NCBI RefSeq assembly: GCF_010119975.1
Contig: NZ_CP048222.1
Coordinates: 7,788,501 to 7,852,500 of the forward strand
Source: Rhodocytophaga rosea
Lineage (GTDB): Bacteria; Bacteroidota; Bacteroidia; Cytophagales; 172606-1
DNA: 64,000 nucleotides
Reading direction: 5' to 3'
Numbering within the stretch: the first letter of the stretch is position 1; every line of letters starts with the position of its first letter. The translations under genes and the position numbers were made by a program. Below the pieces are notes generated by a model, which saw nothing but the letters and a program-made list of their open reading frames with translations, made no database searches and was not told the DNA's origin. This document shows, piece after piece, positions 1 to 8,317 of the stretch.

Positions 1-520
1 CGTGAAGATGTTCAAAAATATGAATGCGAACCTGGTGATTCCTGTTAAAGTGGCTAAAAAATGGGAAATCAATAATAACCTGACAGCTGCCTATCAAGAT
101 TATAGTGTAGAACAACAGGGAAATACGCTCCGCAACCAGCAGTTCTTTTTCTATGCGCAGTCAACGAGTACCATACAATTACCCAAAAAGCTTAGCTTAG
201 AACTGAATGGTGTATACCAGGGGCCGCTTGCCTATGGCTTGTACAGAATTTCAGGAATGTGGTGGGTAGATGCCGGCCTGAAACGTTCCTTCATGGAGGA
301 CAAACTGGAATTAGCTCTGAATGTTACCGATATATTTAAAACCAGGCAAGTAGTAGGAGCCGCCAATTACAATGGCAATGTAAATGAGTTTGACCAGTAT
401 TTTGGCTCACGGGGTATTCGCCTGAACCTGCGCTACCGCTTTACCAAGGGTGCTTCATTTGAAATGAAAAAACGCAATACCAATCTGGATGAACTAAACC
501 GGGCTGGAGGTAATAATTAA
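1..520 (+). CDS. Outer membrane beta-barrel protein, C-terminal part (partial)
   Basis: This is the C-terminal end of a gene that starts before the window; the reading frame is open from the first bases to a TAA at 518-520. The roughly 170 residues seen are alternating short beta strands with aromatic residues and turns (for example the segments WWVDAGLKRSF and LNLRYRF), typical of the last strands of a TonB-dependent-receptor-like barrel. In Bacteroidota such barrels of the PF14905 type sit in the outer membrane and bind or import large ligands. The tail after the last strand is short and hydrophilic. No plug or carboxypeptidase-like domain can be seen because the N-terminus is missing, so the ligand is unknown. 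A terminator follows directly, so this gene is not co-transcribed with the RiPP genes downstream. Confidence 0.75.
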   Translation, partial: VKMFKNMNANLVIPVKVAKKWEINNNLTAAYQDYSVEQQGNTLRNQQFFFYAQSTSTIQLPKKLSLELNGVYQGPLAYGLYRISGMWWVDAGLKRSFMEDKLELALNVTDIFKTRQVVGAANYNGNVNEFDQYFGSRGIRLNLRYRFTKGASFEMKKRNTNLDELNRAGGNN

Positions 521-548
521 TTTCTAAACTGGTAATTTTCTGAACAGG

Positions 549-575
549 TTCCCGGCCCATAACCGGGAATTTTTA
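549..575 (+). terminator. Rho-independent terminator after the barrel gene
   Basis: A perfect 7-bp stem TTCCCGG / CCGGGAA (549-555 and 563-569) with a 7-nt loop is followed by a run of T. It separates the outer-membrane gene from the RiPP-like unit. Confidence 0.8.
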
Positions 576-657
576 TTGACGTCTGATCGTAGTTTGTTGC
601 AACTATTAGGCATATAGCAGGGTCATAAGAGGGAAGAGAACCTAAACGTACCCATCT

Positions 658-825
658 ATGAAACTCTCAAAAACGCTGCTTGGCGCCATTCTGCTGGGCA
701 TTGCCCTTGAAACCACATCTTGTTTAACCGCTGAAGAAGCTCCACAGCCAGAGTCAGAACAAGGATCCAAAAATGAACCAGAAGGTACTATACCTGACAG
801 TTGTCCGGGTTGTGGCATGGGTTAA
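658..825 (+). CDS. Putative MNIO-class RiPP precursor peptide ending in CPGCGMG
   Basis: This is a 55-codon ORF from ATG to TAA. The product has a basic start and a hydrophobic stretch (residues 6-17) ending at Cys22 in TTSC, which looks like a Sec or weak lipoprotein signal. An acidic, proline- and glutamate-rich linker (residues 25-47) follows, and the chain ends in Cys49-Pro-Gly-Cys-Gly-Met-Gly55. The short chain, the signal-like leader and the C-terminal CPxCGMG motif match the chryseobasin-related peptides of Bacteroidota, which DUF692/MNIO enzymes modify at this cysteine-rich end. The next gene, 25 nt downstream, is exactly such an enzyme, so the pairing is the strongest evidence. The signal-like leader suggests the product leaves the cytoplasm. 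No protease or exporter gene is adjacent. The mature chemistry cannot be read from sequence; the pairing and motif are seen, the modification is inferred from the family. Confidence 0.85.
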   Translation: MKLSKTLLGAILLGIALETTSCLTAEEAPQPESEQGSKNEPEGTIPDSCPGCGMG

Positions 826-850
826 ATTGTTCACTATACTTCTATAACTA

Positions 851-1975
851 TTGGCTAAGATTCTATCATCGGTTGCCTGTAATCTGGATGTTCATATACT
901 TTCGGCCAGCATTCCTTTGCTGGAAGAGTCCCAGGTAGATGCCATTGAATGGTCATTTGACACCCTGTTTAATATCTGGCATACCCCAGGCTGGTTTGCC
1001 AGGCTGCTTACTGCCTTCAGCAAAGAAGAAAGGCTGATTGGCCATGGCGTATTTTTCTCCCTTTTGTCAGGCAAATGGTCTAAGGAGCAGTATCAGTGGC
1101 TTTCGCAGCTAAAACAGTTATCTGCAGAATTTCACTTTGACCATATTACCGAACATTTTGGCTTTATGACCGGACAGAGTTTTCATCAGGGAGCTCCTAT
1201 GTGCGTACCGTATTCACCTGCTACTTTAGCTATTGGCAGGGATCGTCTGGCCAGAATACAGGAGGCTTGCTCTTGTCCGGTTGGGCTGGAAAATCTGGCG
1301 TTTGCTGCTTCACTGGAACAAGTAAAACAGCAGGGAGAATTTCTCGAAAGGCTGATTGAACCGGTGAACGGCTTTATTATACTTGATCTGCATAACCTGT
1401 TTTGCCAGATGCATAATTTCTTCATGGATTTTGAGCAACTTCTTTCATCTTATCCGCTGGAACGGGTTAGAGAAATTCATATTTCGGGAGGCAGCTGGGA
1501 AAAATCAGGGAAACAATCTGAACGGATCATCCGCAGGGATACCCATGATCAGGCTGTACCACCCGAAGTATTTCATCTATTAGAAAAAACTATACCGGTA
1601 TGTCCCAATCTGAAATATGTGGTGCTGGAACAATTAGGTATTGCCTTAAAAACGCAGGAAAGTAAAGCTGCTTTTTATCAGAATTTTGTGCAAATGAAAC
1701 AAATTGTGGAGGATAACAATCAAACGATTGCAAACTCTTCAGAAAACCCATTTATCCCACCATCCATTACTCTCCCGGAAACTTTTGTAGAAAACCAGGA
1801 ACTCTATGCACAACAACGGGAATTGTCGGAAATTTTAGAAACCTCTTCTTCCTATGAAGAGACAAACAGGCTATTGAAAGCATCCAGTTTAGCGCATACT
1901 GCCTGGAATATCGAAAGCTGGGACCCGGCCATGATTGAAACTGCCATTCATATTGCCCGGAAATGGAAGAAATAG
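851..1975 (+). CDS. DUF692/MNIO family RiPP-modifying enzyme with C-terminal extension
   Basis: This is a 374-residue protein, predicted cytoplasmic. Residues 1-285 form a DUF692 TIM barrel of the multinuclear non-heme iron oxidative (MNIO) enzymes, the family of MbnB, TglH and ChrH, which modify cysteines in peptide substrates with O2. The expected metal-ligand pattern is visible: His65 in GHG, Asp97-His98, Glu101-His102, Glu147-Asn148 in GLEN, Asp179 and His181 in DLHN, His210 in HISGG, Asp230-x-His232 and Glu260. Typical members have about 280 residues. Here about 90 extra residues follow a low-complexity linker and end in a helical W-rich segment, and no separate partner gene is present. 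The start must be TTG at 851: a stop lies just upstream in frame and the next Met is beyond residue 100. It lies 25 nt after the precursor gene and is surely co-transcribed with it. Confidence 0.9.
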   Translation: MAKILSSVACNLDVHILSASIPLLEESQVDAIEWSFDTLFNIWHTPGWFARLLTAFSKEERLIGHGVFFSLLSGKWSKEQYQWLSQLKQLSAEFHFDHITEHFGFMTGQSFHQGAPMCVPYSPATLAIGRDRLARIQEACSCPVGLENLAFAASLEQVKQQGEFLERLIEPVNGFIILDLHNLFCQMHNFFMDFEQLLSSYPLERVREIHISGGSWEKSGKQSERIIRRDTHDQAVPPEVFHLLEKTIPVCPNLKYVVLEQLGIALKTQESKAAFYQNFVQMKQIVEDNNQTIANSSENPFIPPSITLPETFVENQELYAQQRELSEILETSSSYEETNRLLKASSLAHTAWNIESWDPAMIETAIHIARKWKK

Positions 1976-5699: not shown

Positions 5700-6797
5700 T
5701 TATTTAACGATCGTCCGTTCGCTTACTTCCGTTTGCTTACGGATAGATTCTAAGTGAATCAGTTTGAAAAGGTCTGCTACAAAATCTTCATGCACATTCA
5801 TTTTGGCAGCCCATTCCGGACGGGATTTGAACACTTCATTCCAGCGTTCTACCTGGAAAATTGCTACGTTGTTTTCTTTTTTGTATTCACCTAATTTTTC
5901 TACCAGCGACATCCGTGCAGCCAGTACTTCGATCAGTTCGCGGTCTACCCGGTCGATCTGGCTACGGATTTCTTCGAGTTTATTCACAAAGAAAGCATCG
6001 TTGCTGCTTGCCTGGCGGATTTTAAGGTCAGACAGAATTTCAGCCAGACGGTCTGGCGTAACTTGCTGGGCAGCATCGCTCCATGCATTATCCGGATCTA
6101 AATGCGTTTCAATCATCAAGCCATCATAGTTCAGATCCAGCGCTTTCTGGGAAAGGTCGAATATCAGATCCCGCTTTCCGCCGATGTGGCTAGGATCGCA
6201 GATGATCGGAAGGTCAGGGAAAATAGTTTTAAGTTCAATTGGAATCTGCCAGAACGGGTCGTTACGGTATTTGCCTTTCTGGAATGTAGAGAACCCACGG
6301 TGAATGGCCGCAATATTCTCAACCCCTGCATTGTAAATACGCTCAATGGCACCAATCCACAGAGCCAGTTCCGGATTGATTGGGTTTTTAATCAGTACAG
6401 GCACTTTCACCCCTCTGAGGGCATCTGCAATTTCCTGTACATTAAAAGGATTTACGGTGCTGCGGGCACCAATCCAGAGAATATCCACGCCATATTTTAA
6501 GGCTTCCTCAATATGCTGGGGCGTAGCAATTTCTACGGCAAAGGGCAGACCTACCTCTTTTTTTACGGTTTGAATCCAGGGCAGCGCCACTACACCATTT
6601 CCTTCAAAGCTGTTCGGACGGGTACGGGGTTTCCAGATACCTGCACGAAGGGCATCGACGTTCAACTTTTTGAGGGCACGGGCTGTATTAAGCAGTTGTT
6701 CTTCTGTTTCAGCACTGCAAGGACCGGCAATAACCAATGGCTTCTGATCATATTTGATCCACGAAGAAAGAGGTTTAAATGTTAAATTAGCAGACAT
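5700..6797 (-). CDS. Bifunctional 3-deoxy-7-phosphoheptulonate synthase / chorismate mutase type II
   Basis: A 365-residue enzyme of the shikimate pathway. The N-terminal part (about 1-265) is a KDO8P-synthase-type DAHP synthase, which condenses phosphoenolpyruvate and erythrose 4-phosphate; the motif AGPCSAE and the later IICDPSHIGG are diagnostic. The C-terminal part (about 275-365) is an AroQ chorismate mutase with the pattern RSQIDRVDRELIEVLAARM. Fusion in this order is the standard Bacteroidota form and links entry to the pathway with the phenylalanine/tyrosine branch, probably allowing feedback control by prephenate. I chose the ATG at 6797 because the 13 upstream codons are not family-like. 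A single gene with its own terminator; pheA with a second chorismate mutase lies at the far end of the window. Confidence 0.93.
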   Translation of the reverse strand: MSANLTFKPLSSWIKYDQKPLVIAGPCSAETEEQLLNTARALKKLNVDALRAGIWKPRTRPNSFEGNGVVALPWIQTVKKEVGLPFAVEIATPQHIEEALKYGVDILWIGARSTVNPFNVQEIADALRGVKVPVLIKNPINPELALWIGAIERIYNAGVENIAAIHRGFSTFQKGKYRNDPFWQIPIELKTIFPDLPIICDPSHIGGKRDLIFDLSQKALDLNYDGLMIETHLDPDNAWSDAAQQVTPDRLAEILSDLKIRQASSNDAFFVNKLEEIRSQIDRVDRELIEVLAARMSLVEKLGEYKKENNVAIFQVERWNEVFKSRPEWAAKMNVHEDFVADLFKLIHLESIRKQTEVSERTIVK

Positions 6798-6970
6798 ATA
6801 GATGTAACGTTTGGTACCGGAGCCAAATTCCGGCAAATAGTTTGTAAAAATAATAAATTTAATATTATAGATGCTAATAATTTTGCACTATATTCAGAAT
6901 AATATAATTTTATTAGGATATATTACAAATTGCAGCAGTTTCTGTTTGCTGTATCTACAAGCCATAGTAT

Positions 6971-8317
6971 ATGATCGGAAATAAGTATCCCAGCATTGAG
7001 GACCTGATGCGTGAAAATGAGAGATTGAAAACAGTGATTGCCTTGCTGGAAGAAAATAATCCTCAGAAAAAATATGGCCTGGTATGGGAAAAGCAAGCAG
7101 ATGGCGAATCTGTGCCACCACAGGAATTGTATTTGCGGGAAGTAACTGAAAAACGCATTTATACCTCAGAGACGTCGCCGCTGCACTGGCTGATCGAAGG
7201 AGATAATTACCATTCCTTATATATATTGCTGCAAACCCACCGGCAGAAAATAGACCTCATCTATATTGATCCGCCGTATAATACCGGCAACCGCGATTTT
7301 AAATTTAAAGACCGCTTTTCAGACCAGGAAGCTGCTTACCGGCATAGCCGCTGGATTGCTTTTATGGAAAAACGCCTTCGTTTAGCCAGGCAATTATTAT
7401 CTCCCTCGGGTGCCATCTTTGTCAGTATTGATGATACCGAACTAGCGCAGACCAAATTGCTCTGTGATGAGATTTTCGGAGAAAAGAATTTTGTGGCCAA
7501 CTTTATCCGCAAATGCAAAACCGGCAGCGGGCATGATAGCGGAAAAATTGCCATAGAGTTTGATTACATGCTCTGTTATACCAAAGATAGCTCCAAACAA
7601 AAATTCAATAAGTTGCCTCTGGATGTAGAATCAGATGCCAAATACAGGCATCAGGATACATTTGTGGCGCACCGGGGCAAGTATTACCTGCGTGACCTGG
7701 ATTACAAAGGCAGTTACAGTGCAAGCCTGGATTATCCCATACAGGCTCCGGATGGTACCGAATTATGGCCTGGAGGAGCTTTCGGGCGGCCCAATACCTG
7801 GCGCTGGAACCGTGAAAAATTTGAGTGGGGGCTAGCTAATGATTATATAGTATTTAAACGCAATGCAAAGCAGTGGAAAGTATATATTAAGCAGTACCAG
7901 TATGTAGATAACCAGGACCAAAAGAGGGTTCGGGAACTGCCTCACCGGGCCATGATCGAATTTATTAATTCTAAAGGAAGCAATGAACTAAAAGATATTT
8001 TGCATGAAGATATATTTACACATCCCAAACCGGTTGATCTGATTGAGTTTGTTATCAATCTGATGCCTGGAAAACAGCTTACTATTCTGGATTTTTTTGC
8101 CGGTTCAGGTACGACCGGCCATGCAGTACTGCGCCTCAACCAGCAACAGGGTACACAACACCACTTCATTTTGTGTACAAATAATGAAAATGGCATTTGT
8201 GAAAAAGTATGTTACGAGCGGCTGCGACGGGTAATTGGAGGATACGAAACCAGAAATGGGCGGTATGTAAAAGGCACGGGTGGCAATTTGTCGTACTGGC
8301 GGGTAGCAGAGAGTTGA
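6971..8317 (+). CDS. Beta-class DNA N6-adenine methyltransferase (type III Mod-like), orphan
   Basis: A 448-residue site-specific DNA methyltransferase. The catalytic motif DPPYNTGN (Asp100-Tyr103) comes before the S-adenosylmethionine motif FFAGSGTTGHA (from Phe375), the order of the beta group that includes type III Mod subunits. The roughly 250 residues between them should be the target recognition domain. The N-terminus has a short coiled-coil (ENERLKTVIALLEEN) like that of Mod proteins. At 448 residues it is shorter than typical type III Mod (about 600 or more). No Res helicase-nuclease gene lies on either side; the neighbours are aromatic biosynthesis and a sensor kinase. It could be a solitary regulatory methylase or part of a decayed system. 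A PD-(D/E)XK-like gene lies 4.3 kb downstream but is not in the same operon. Confidence 0.88.
   Translation: MIGNKYPSIEDLMRENERLKTVIALLEENNPQKKYGLVWEKQADGESVPPQELYLREVTEKRIYTSETSPLHWLIEGDNYHSLYILLQTHRQKIDLIYIDPPYNTGNRDFKFKDRFSDQEAAYRHSRWIAFMEKRLRLARQLLSPSGAIFVSIDDTELAQTKLLCDEIFGEKNFVANFIRKCKTGSGHDSGKIAIEFDYMLCYTKDSSKQKFNKLPLDVESDAKYRHQDTFVAHRGKYYLRDLDYKGSYSASLDYPIQAPDGTELWPGGAFGRPNTWRWNREKFEWGLANDYIVFKRNAKQWKVYIKQYQYVDNQDQKRVRELPHRAMIEFINSKGSNELKDILHEDIFTHPKPVDLIEFVINLMPGKQLTILDFFAGSGTTGHAVLRLNQQQGTQHHFILCTNNENGICEKVCYERLRRVIGGYETRNGRYVKGTGGNLSYWRVAES

Follow-up and report, generated by a model that had tools for sequence, protein, structure and literature searches.

Among the described systems, the one closest to the locus considered here is DybA/DybH of Dyadobacter crusticola, presented in a preprint as a pair of genes for which no partner is needed (PMC12636315). 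As described in that source, DybH works on the C-terminal heptapeptide alone, its action upon CPACGMG results in a loss of 4 Da with formation of a macrocycle and a hydantoin, and the third Cys of DybA is lipidated. HymA (CPGCGLG) and ChsA are reported to lose 4 Da likewise, ChrH to methylate and ArlH to yield a mixture, and what lipidated RiPPs of the DybA type do is, according to that source, unknown (PMC12636315). A search of one literature library, by title and start of abstract, found no other studies of this lipidated branch.

Here we describe two genes located within a 64,000-nucleotide stretch of the Rhodocytophaga rosea genome, hereafter the window, that, judged by their sequences, are a new example of the already described DybA/DybH-type system. 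The pair is assigned to this known kind because the architecture is characterized in PMC12636315, the CPGCGMG core is a common variant, and the minimal layout is usual. The features of the locus are as follows.

546 to 574, forward strand: hairpin followed by a run of Ts, probably the terminator that closes the outer-membrane beta-barrel gene upstream (RNA fold)
597 to 626, forward strand: candidate ECF-type promoter, TTGCAAC (597-603), a 17-nt spacer and GGTCAT (621-626) (two-box search)
658 to 825, forward strand: precursor peptide, 55 aa, DybA-type (full-length match to NF050125, 72.3 bits)
658 to 720, forward strand: lipoprotein signal peptide MKLSKTLLGAILLGIALETTS (leader comparison across precursors)
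721 to 723, forward strand: lipobox cysteine, predicted lipid attachment site (internal Cys and lipobox rule across precursors)
724 to 801, forward strand: hydrophilic tether of 26 residues with an acidic pair at +5/+6
802 to 822, forward strand: core heptapeptide CPGCGMG at the C-terminus (genome DNA pattern; cores of relatives)
851 to 1975, forward strand: MNIO oxidase of the DybH/ChrH type, TIM barrel plus C-terminal helices (profiles, model, solved folds)
1796 to 1969, forward strand: C-terminal helices, residues 316-373 (predicted model; subfamily feature in PMC12636315)

With DybA/DybH, as described in the preprint, the locus shares a two-gene layout, a lipobox cysteine, a CPxCGxG end, C-terminal helices of the MNIO and the lack of a partner, and it differs in its core, CPGCGMG rather than the CPACGMG of DybA (PMC12636315). 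HymA/HymH of Hymenobacter gelipurpurascens, from the non-Chryseobacterium branch of Bacteroidota, likewise has a CPGC core and gives a product lighter by 4 Da, which is predicted here by analogy, but HymA ends in CGLG and the window precursor in CGMG (PMC12636315). ChrA/ChrH, the source of chryseobasin, resembles the pair in enzyme subfamily and C-terminal motif, whereas ChrA is longer and carries a signal peptidase I leader, and ChrA and ChrH lie in an operon with ChrI, ChrE and ChrP that gives rise to an S-methylated product of +10 Da (PMC10214503, PMC12636315).

The precursor ORF at 658-825 comprises 55 codons from an ATG start, and its product, laid out as MKLSKTLLGAILLGIALETTS, the lipobox C, LTAEEAPQPESEQGSKNEPEGTIPDS and CPGCGMG, is matched over residues 1-55 by NF050125 of NCBIfam ('chryseobasin-related MNIO class RiPP peptide'; 72.3 bits, cut-off 40), with the C-terminal CPxCGxG adjoining an MNIO gene in agreement on motif. 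The initial annotation, made from the sequence without database searches, had proposed just such a 55-residue peptide ending in CPGCGMG within a RiPP system linked to chryseobasin, and both points are borne out, the latter by the NF050125 match together with the account in PMC12636315. Across the whole genome, the DNA pattern for CPxCGxG followed by a stop matches the precursor and nothing else, such that no further substrates with this ending were found. The 21-residue leader runs into TTS-C, in line by eye and by rule with the lipobox of DAG-RiPPs; of the earlier description of this leader, the resemblance to a lipoprotein signal is therefore retained and the generic secretion type is not. 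An internal Cys follows a leader of 19-26 residues in 103 of 105 precursors (it is absent in two), and of these 103, 97 have a lipobox by rule and six fail it. Two precursors that lack the internal Cys, an ORF at 7137 of locus L113 and one in L062, keep a similar N-terminal stretch; L113 holds precursors with and without this Cys side by side, and the L062 peptide, which comes from the 395-genome sample of the phylum and has a CPACGMG end adjoining an MNIO gene, scores under the cut-off.

Cores are distributed unevenly among 101 distinct precursors: CPACGMG occurs in 65, CPGCGMG in 19, CPACGLG in seven and CPGCGLG in four. The window core is thus the second commonest, and what had been regarded as its distinguishing feature is commonplace within the subfamily. 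Divergent cores (CLSCGMG, CQGCGMG, CPACGRG) were observed in loci L101, L109 and L120.

The MNIO gene begins 25 nt downstream of the precursor with a TTG start, encodes 374 aa, and has relatives that align from about the same residue. PF05114 matches the protein with 112.8 bits (cut-off 25), and its predicted structure (mean pLDDT 88) consists of a TIM barrel followed by helices at residues 316-331, 335-344 and 359-373, an extra C-terminal domain being described as a feature of the ChrH subfamily (PMC12636315). TglH and MbnB are the best solved folds for the model, and the conserved His/Asp/Glu positions align with those of solved TglH (8hci) and 3bww. By profile, modelled barrel and predicted metal-binding His/Asp/Glu set, the protein is a member of the MNIO family (PF05114), and profile, alignment and gap all agree with the original description of a DUF692 enzyme with its full His/Asp/Glu set 25 nt downstream. 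The ChrH model NF050165, by comparison, yields 393 bits, under its equivalog cut-off of 600, a score reached by none of the 12 strong MNIO copies, own included, among 194 genomes of the order; by these scores the enzyme is assigned to the wider ChrH subfamily, outside the ChrH equivalog.

Pairing of the two genes was followed, with a threshold of 350 bits for the MNIO, in an order-wide sample of 194 genomes that contains the window's own. Precursors scoring above cut-off were found in 11 of these genomes (12 copies, own included), and the 12 MNIO copies above 350 bits reside in the same 11 genomes; weak MNIO matches alone (about 70 bits or less) were found in 12 further genomes. All 12 strong copies adjoin a peptide, the twelfth, on contig G082:C221, by coordinates. 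In a sample of the phylum, the precursor passes in three of 395 genomes, own included. When the best 80 of 310 relatives from an MNIO-alignment scan were considered (two of them, L063 and L074, are contigs already present in the order sample), a C..CG.G peptide was found no more than 650 nt upstream of the MNIO, and mostly within 100 nt, in 79 of the 80 loci. The one further case, L115, encodes an MNIO of the same subfamily at 6688-7809 with no recognisable precursor on its 8-kb contig. Since pairing holds for 12 of 12 strong copies within the order and for 79 of the 80 additional loci, the association is not a matter of chance; it is conserved elsewhere in the order, where the initial annotation had advised looking for it, and the outcome is the opposite of relatives that never lie beside such a peptide, which the initial annotation had named as grounds for rejection. 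Two or more lipobox-type precursors occur in 10 of 93 loci; the loci in which one MNIO has more than one precursor gene nearby are L078, L088, L093, L094, L099, L107, L111, L113, L119 and L132; a CPVCGMG core is present among the precursors of L093 and L119.

Within the family to which the window's organism belongs, the pair is sporadic: two of seven other genomes have it and five do not, the latter including the same-genus genome G040 and one genome that is 72% complete. Dyadobacter we take to be a member of another family of Cytophagales. Profile scans found both genes absent from G040. A clean empty site was sought in that genome without success: the orthologue of the upstream barrel is present with 75% identity, but on the downstream side no match exceeds 34%.

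Apart from the MNIO, no neighbour recurs widely in 95 precursor loci, several of which end at contig ends and two of which are present twice. The next groups, named from one Pfam representative each, include SusC-like receptors (15 loci), SusD (nine) and relatives of the upstream barrel (eight). A minimal pathway free of extra genes, as suggested at the outset, is consistent with the MNIO being the sole widely conserved neighbour, but this layout, then viewed as distinctive, is usual for the subfamily. The upstream gene (window 2-520; L018 6579-9020) encodes an 813-residue outer-membrane beta-barrel protein (PF14905), and a DUF218 protein, outside the 25 most widespread neighbour groups, is encoded downstream on the same strand at 2149-2784. 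The proposal of a terminator just upstream of the pair is upheld by the hairpin at 546-572, which runs into Ts and folds at -13.3 kcal/mol (z -2.45; six of 200 shuffles fold as well); it is not among the terminators listed by a pattern scan.

Taken together, sequence and analogy point to a minimal DybA/DybH-type pathway making a lipidated RiPP, a reading to which we assign a probability of roughly 0.85. In such a pathway, a cytoplasmic MNIO would recognise CPGCGMG at the C-terminus and use iron and O2 for a four-electron oxidation (-4 Da) of the core; by analogy with DybH and HymH, two cysteines would be joined in a thiohemiaminal macrocycle, a hydantoin would form, and one thiol would stay free. 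The precursor would then be exported, lipidated at Cys22 and cut by signal peptidase II, and the lipopeptide would probably be carried to the outer membrane, where the ring would sit on a 26-residue tether. It could be argued that the MNIO is an S-methylating enzyme as well and makes a +10 Da product like chryseobasin, given that motif and subfamily are shared with ChrH, which methylates, and that ArlH gives a mixture (PMC12636315). This we regard as highly improbable: the three enzymes of other Bacteroidota genera for which results are described (DybH, ChsH and HymH) bring about a loss of 4 Da (PMC12636315), and the window MNIO attains only 393 of the 600 bits demanded by the ChrH model.

Whether the lipidated product instead serves as a buffer for copper or another metal, in the manner of bufferins or methanobactin, bears upon the earlier suggestion of a "metal-handling or surface product". 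Copper is bound by other MNIO products (PMC12452194), and the Dyb product keeps a free thiol; that product, however, is described as lacking the absorbance typical of methanobactin or bufferins (PMC12636315). Moreover, no metal gene was recognised in the 25 commonest groups of neighbours, of which three representatives were checked by Pfam, and none of the ten members of the candidate regulon discussed below has a metal-related Pfam match, five of them having no match at all. A metal-buffering role is accordingly judged improbable; of the two halves of the suggestion, the metal finds no support, and a product located at the membrane or surface is the better fit.

Residues that follow the lipid Cys speak to the location of such a lipidated product. 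In Capnocytophaga, the lipoprotein export signal (LES) reads C-X-K-(D/E)2-X (PMC5080379). Among 103 precursors, K is found at +3 in 54, and an acidic residue at +4 in 40 and at +5 in 60; K-(D/E)2 lies between +2 and +7 in 23 of the 103, whereas it is found in 42 of 1605 windows placed farther along the tether. Across the family, the residues after the Cys thus resemble the surface-export signal of Bacteroidota. SusD lipoproteins of the same genome mostly show C-[KSN]-D, with D/E at +3 in 17 of 23 (30 loci were taken from 44 matches, no lipobox was obtained for seven of the 30, and two of the remaining 23 seem to be wrong calls). The window precursor, C-L-T-A-E-E-A, does not fit the signal of these 23 proteins, and because of this misfit of C-L-T-A-E-E, surface exposure of its product is uncertain.

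In addition to its core, the precursor is conserved in its leader. Signal peptides of the precursors are on average 51.9% identical over 66 genome pairs, versus 31.9% for BamD (55 pairs), 34.2% for GldK (55 pairs) and 34.0% for GldJ-like proteins (45 pairs) from the same genomes; the name GldJ-like is used because all GldJ matches fall below the model cut-off, and no signal was obtained from BamD of G082 or GldJ of G069. In cross-genus pairs, which are not independent of one another, the precursor leader is the more conserved in 48 of 52 (BamD), 35 of 42 (GldK) and 37 of 42 (GldJ-like); a GldK row with a wrong signal call (G176) was kept in the first means and dropped from the cross-genus set, and the means are similar. 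Specific positions stand out among 96 distinct leaders: L8 in 93, A10 in 89 and G14 in 79, conservation of residues 1-4 being biased by a start that was picked by a pattern on those positions. Fourfold sites of the leader are near saturation (34% identical, against a codon-usage expectation of roughly 30%) while its amino acids are conserved, from which it follows that the short ORF is coding, the answer to the synonymous-site test proposed in the initial annotation, and that selection on the leader acts at the protein level. Relaxed selection on the N-terminus of substrates, as put forward in PMC12636315, may hold across substrate types, but from these comparisons does not seem to hold within the lipoprotein branch. 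Reading of the leader by the C-terminal domain of the MNIO was considered and is not supported, since the partial distance correlation (0.10; Mantel p 0.012) is weaker than that between leader and barrel (0.37).

Upstream of the precursors, repeated 8-mers led to a two-box pattern, written after the sequences had been seen: T[GA][CT]AAC followed, after 17 nt, by NNTC or GTTT. In the window it takes the form TGCAAC-N17-GGTCAT and lies at 598-626, between the hairpin of the upstream gene and the start of the precursor. Among 101 distinct 200-nt upstream regions (two of 103 were removed as exact duplicates), 43 contain the element, as compared to a mean of 1.2 and a maximum of five in 20 dinucleotide shuffles, and the loose pattern has a background of 0.012 per 200 nt on both strands of 95 loci. 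A spacing of 17 forms a peak, other spacings from 12 to 22 being found in at most 14 of the 101 regions. All 43 sites are distinct and their spacers are on average 30% identical, too little for shared ancestry to explain the boxes. By taxonomic group, assigned by hand, the element is present in 13 of 29 upstreams in Chitinophagales, 11 of 17 in Hymenobacteraceae, three of four in the Pontibacter group, five of eight in other Cytophagales, one of nine in Fluviicola, none of eight in Saprospiraceae, none of four in Sphingobacteriales, none of eight in the remaining Bacteroidetes, and 10 of 14 in the remaining sampled genomes. Three strict forms hardly occur away from precursors, which account for eight of 10, six of seven and six of seven of their matches in 94 relative loci.

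Other promoter types were examined and set aside. Sigma-70-like sites are not enriched (12 versus 10.5 expected in a pattern scan). The general promoter motif of Bacteroidota is TTTG/TAnnTTTG, and it too is not enriched, with one match in 103 upstreams and 1.7 in shuffles. The SigP motif of Porphyromonas, as given in PMC4800418, bears no resemblance to the two-box element, and a text search of the main text of PMC12636315 returned no 'promoter', 'regulat' or 'transcription'. Precursor transcription most likely starts from the 597-626 element, as far as sequence patterns indicate.

Scanning of the window's own genome with TGCAAC-N17-GGTCW identified 17 sites, and five were found with the reversed pattern as control. 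Six of the 17 are intragenic, a number close to that of the control, and 11, the precursor's included, lie 55-175 nt ahead of an ORF start (the L279 site does so if a later Met is taken, and the L293 site also overlaps a 117-codon antisense ORF). The ten other genes behind intergenic sites encode eight predicted lipoproteins, a type IX sorting-domain protein and an ECF sigma factor. This share of lipoproteins, eight of 10, contrasts with six of 70 background genes of the same genome under the same rule (Fisher p 4e-6), and becomes eight of 14 when in-gene sites and any listed downstream ORF are counted. FKBP isomerase, TssR-like VWA and META-domain proteins are among the lipoproteins, and half of the ten genes have no Pfam match.

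The ECF sigma gene (G000:C1:8615166-8615720, minus strand) is proposed as the regulator only because it carries the element itself, beginning 71 nt before the sigma ORF; the two boxes at fixed spacing are thus common to the sequences upstream of the precursor and the sigma gene. We favour, with moderate confidence, the view that the two-box promoter would be used by this autoregulated sigma factor and that the product would belong to an envelope lipoprotein programme, the latter because predicted lipoproteins make up most of its other candidate targets. That a different regulator acts at the element, or that the genes behind it are a chance set, seems to us unlikely. Such a view would accommodate the 58 of 101 upstreams without the element at spacing 17, and about five of the 17 genomic sites are expected from the reversed control. 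Against it stand a fixed spacing maintained around divergent spacers and the excess of lipoproteins behind the intergenic sites, and the lack of enrichment of the general Bacteroidota pattern.

The proposed sigma gene overlaps a 641-codon ORF (together 8613257-8615720, minus strand, within L294, G000:C1:8606001-8622000). The predicted protein, whose N-terminus is cytosol-sized, has a single TM helix predicted from about residue 48, a long low-complexity stretch and a C-terminus, FQYRF, ending in aromatic residues; no Pfam match was obtained at E 1. By hydropathy and composition it resembles the layout of Dma-type anti-sigma factors, described as a cytosolic domain, TM helix, tether and outer-membrane barrel encoded beside an ECF21 gene and as affecting vesicle formation in Bacteroides thetaiotaomicron (PMC13088901). 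It differs from the Dma/ECF21 systems of that source in that it has no Pfam match, the sigma factor is placed as ECF only, and the link to the RiPP is a promoter motif (PMC13088901). Three successive predicted lipoprotein genes lie at 11665-14731 of L294, on the upstream side of the sigma gene and on the opposite strand.

A broader proposal can be advanced only tentatively, and we would not bet on it at even odds: that the ring peptide is an output of an outer-membrane-sensing ECF/anti-sigma lipoprotein regulon, acting at or shed from the surface, for example in vesicles, in response to the state of the envelope, and that its signal peptide is a conserved and specifically recognised element. 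Were the signal peptide so recognised, it would not be a generic leader, contrary to what the literature assumes, and its unexpected conservation suggests a step of recognition to which assays on leaderless substrates would be blind. The conserved promoter shared with an ECF sigma factor and predicted lipoprotein genes, in turn, gives a clue, open to testing, to the timing of peptide production.
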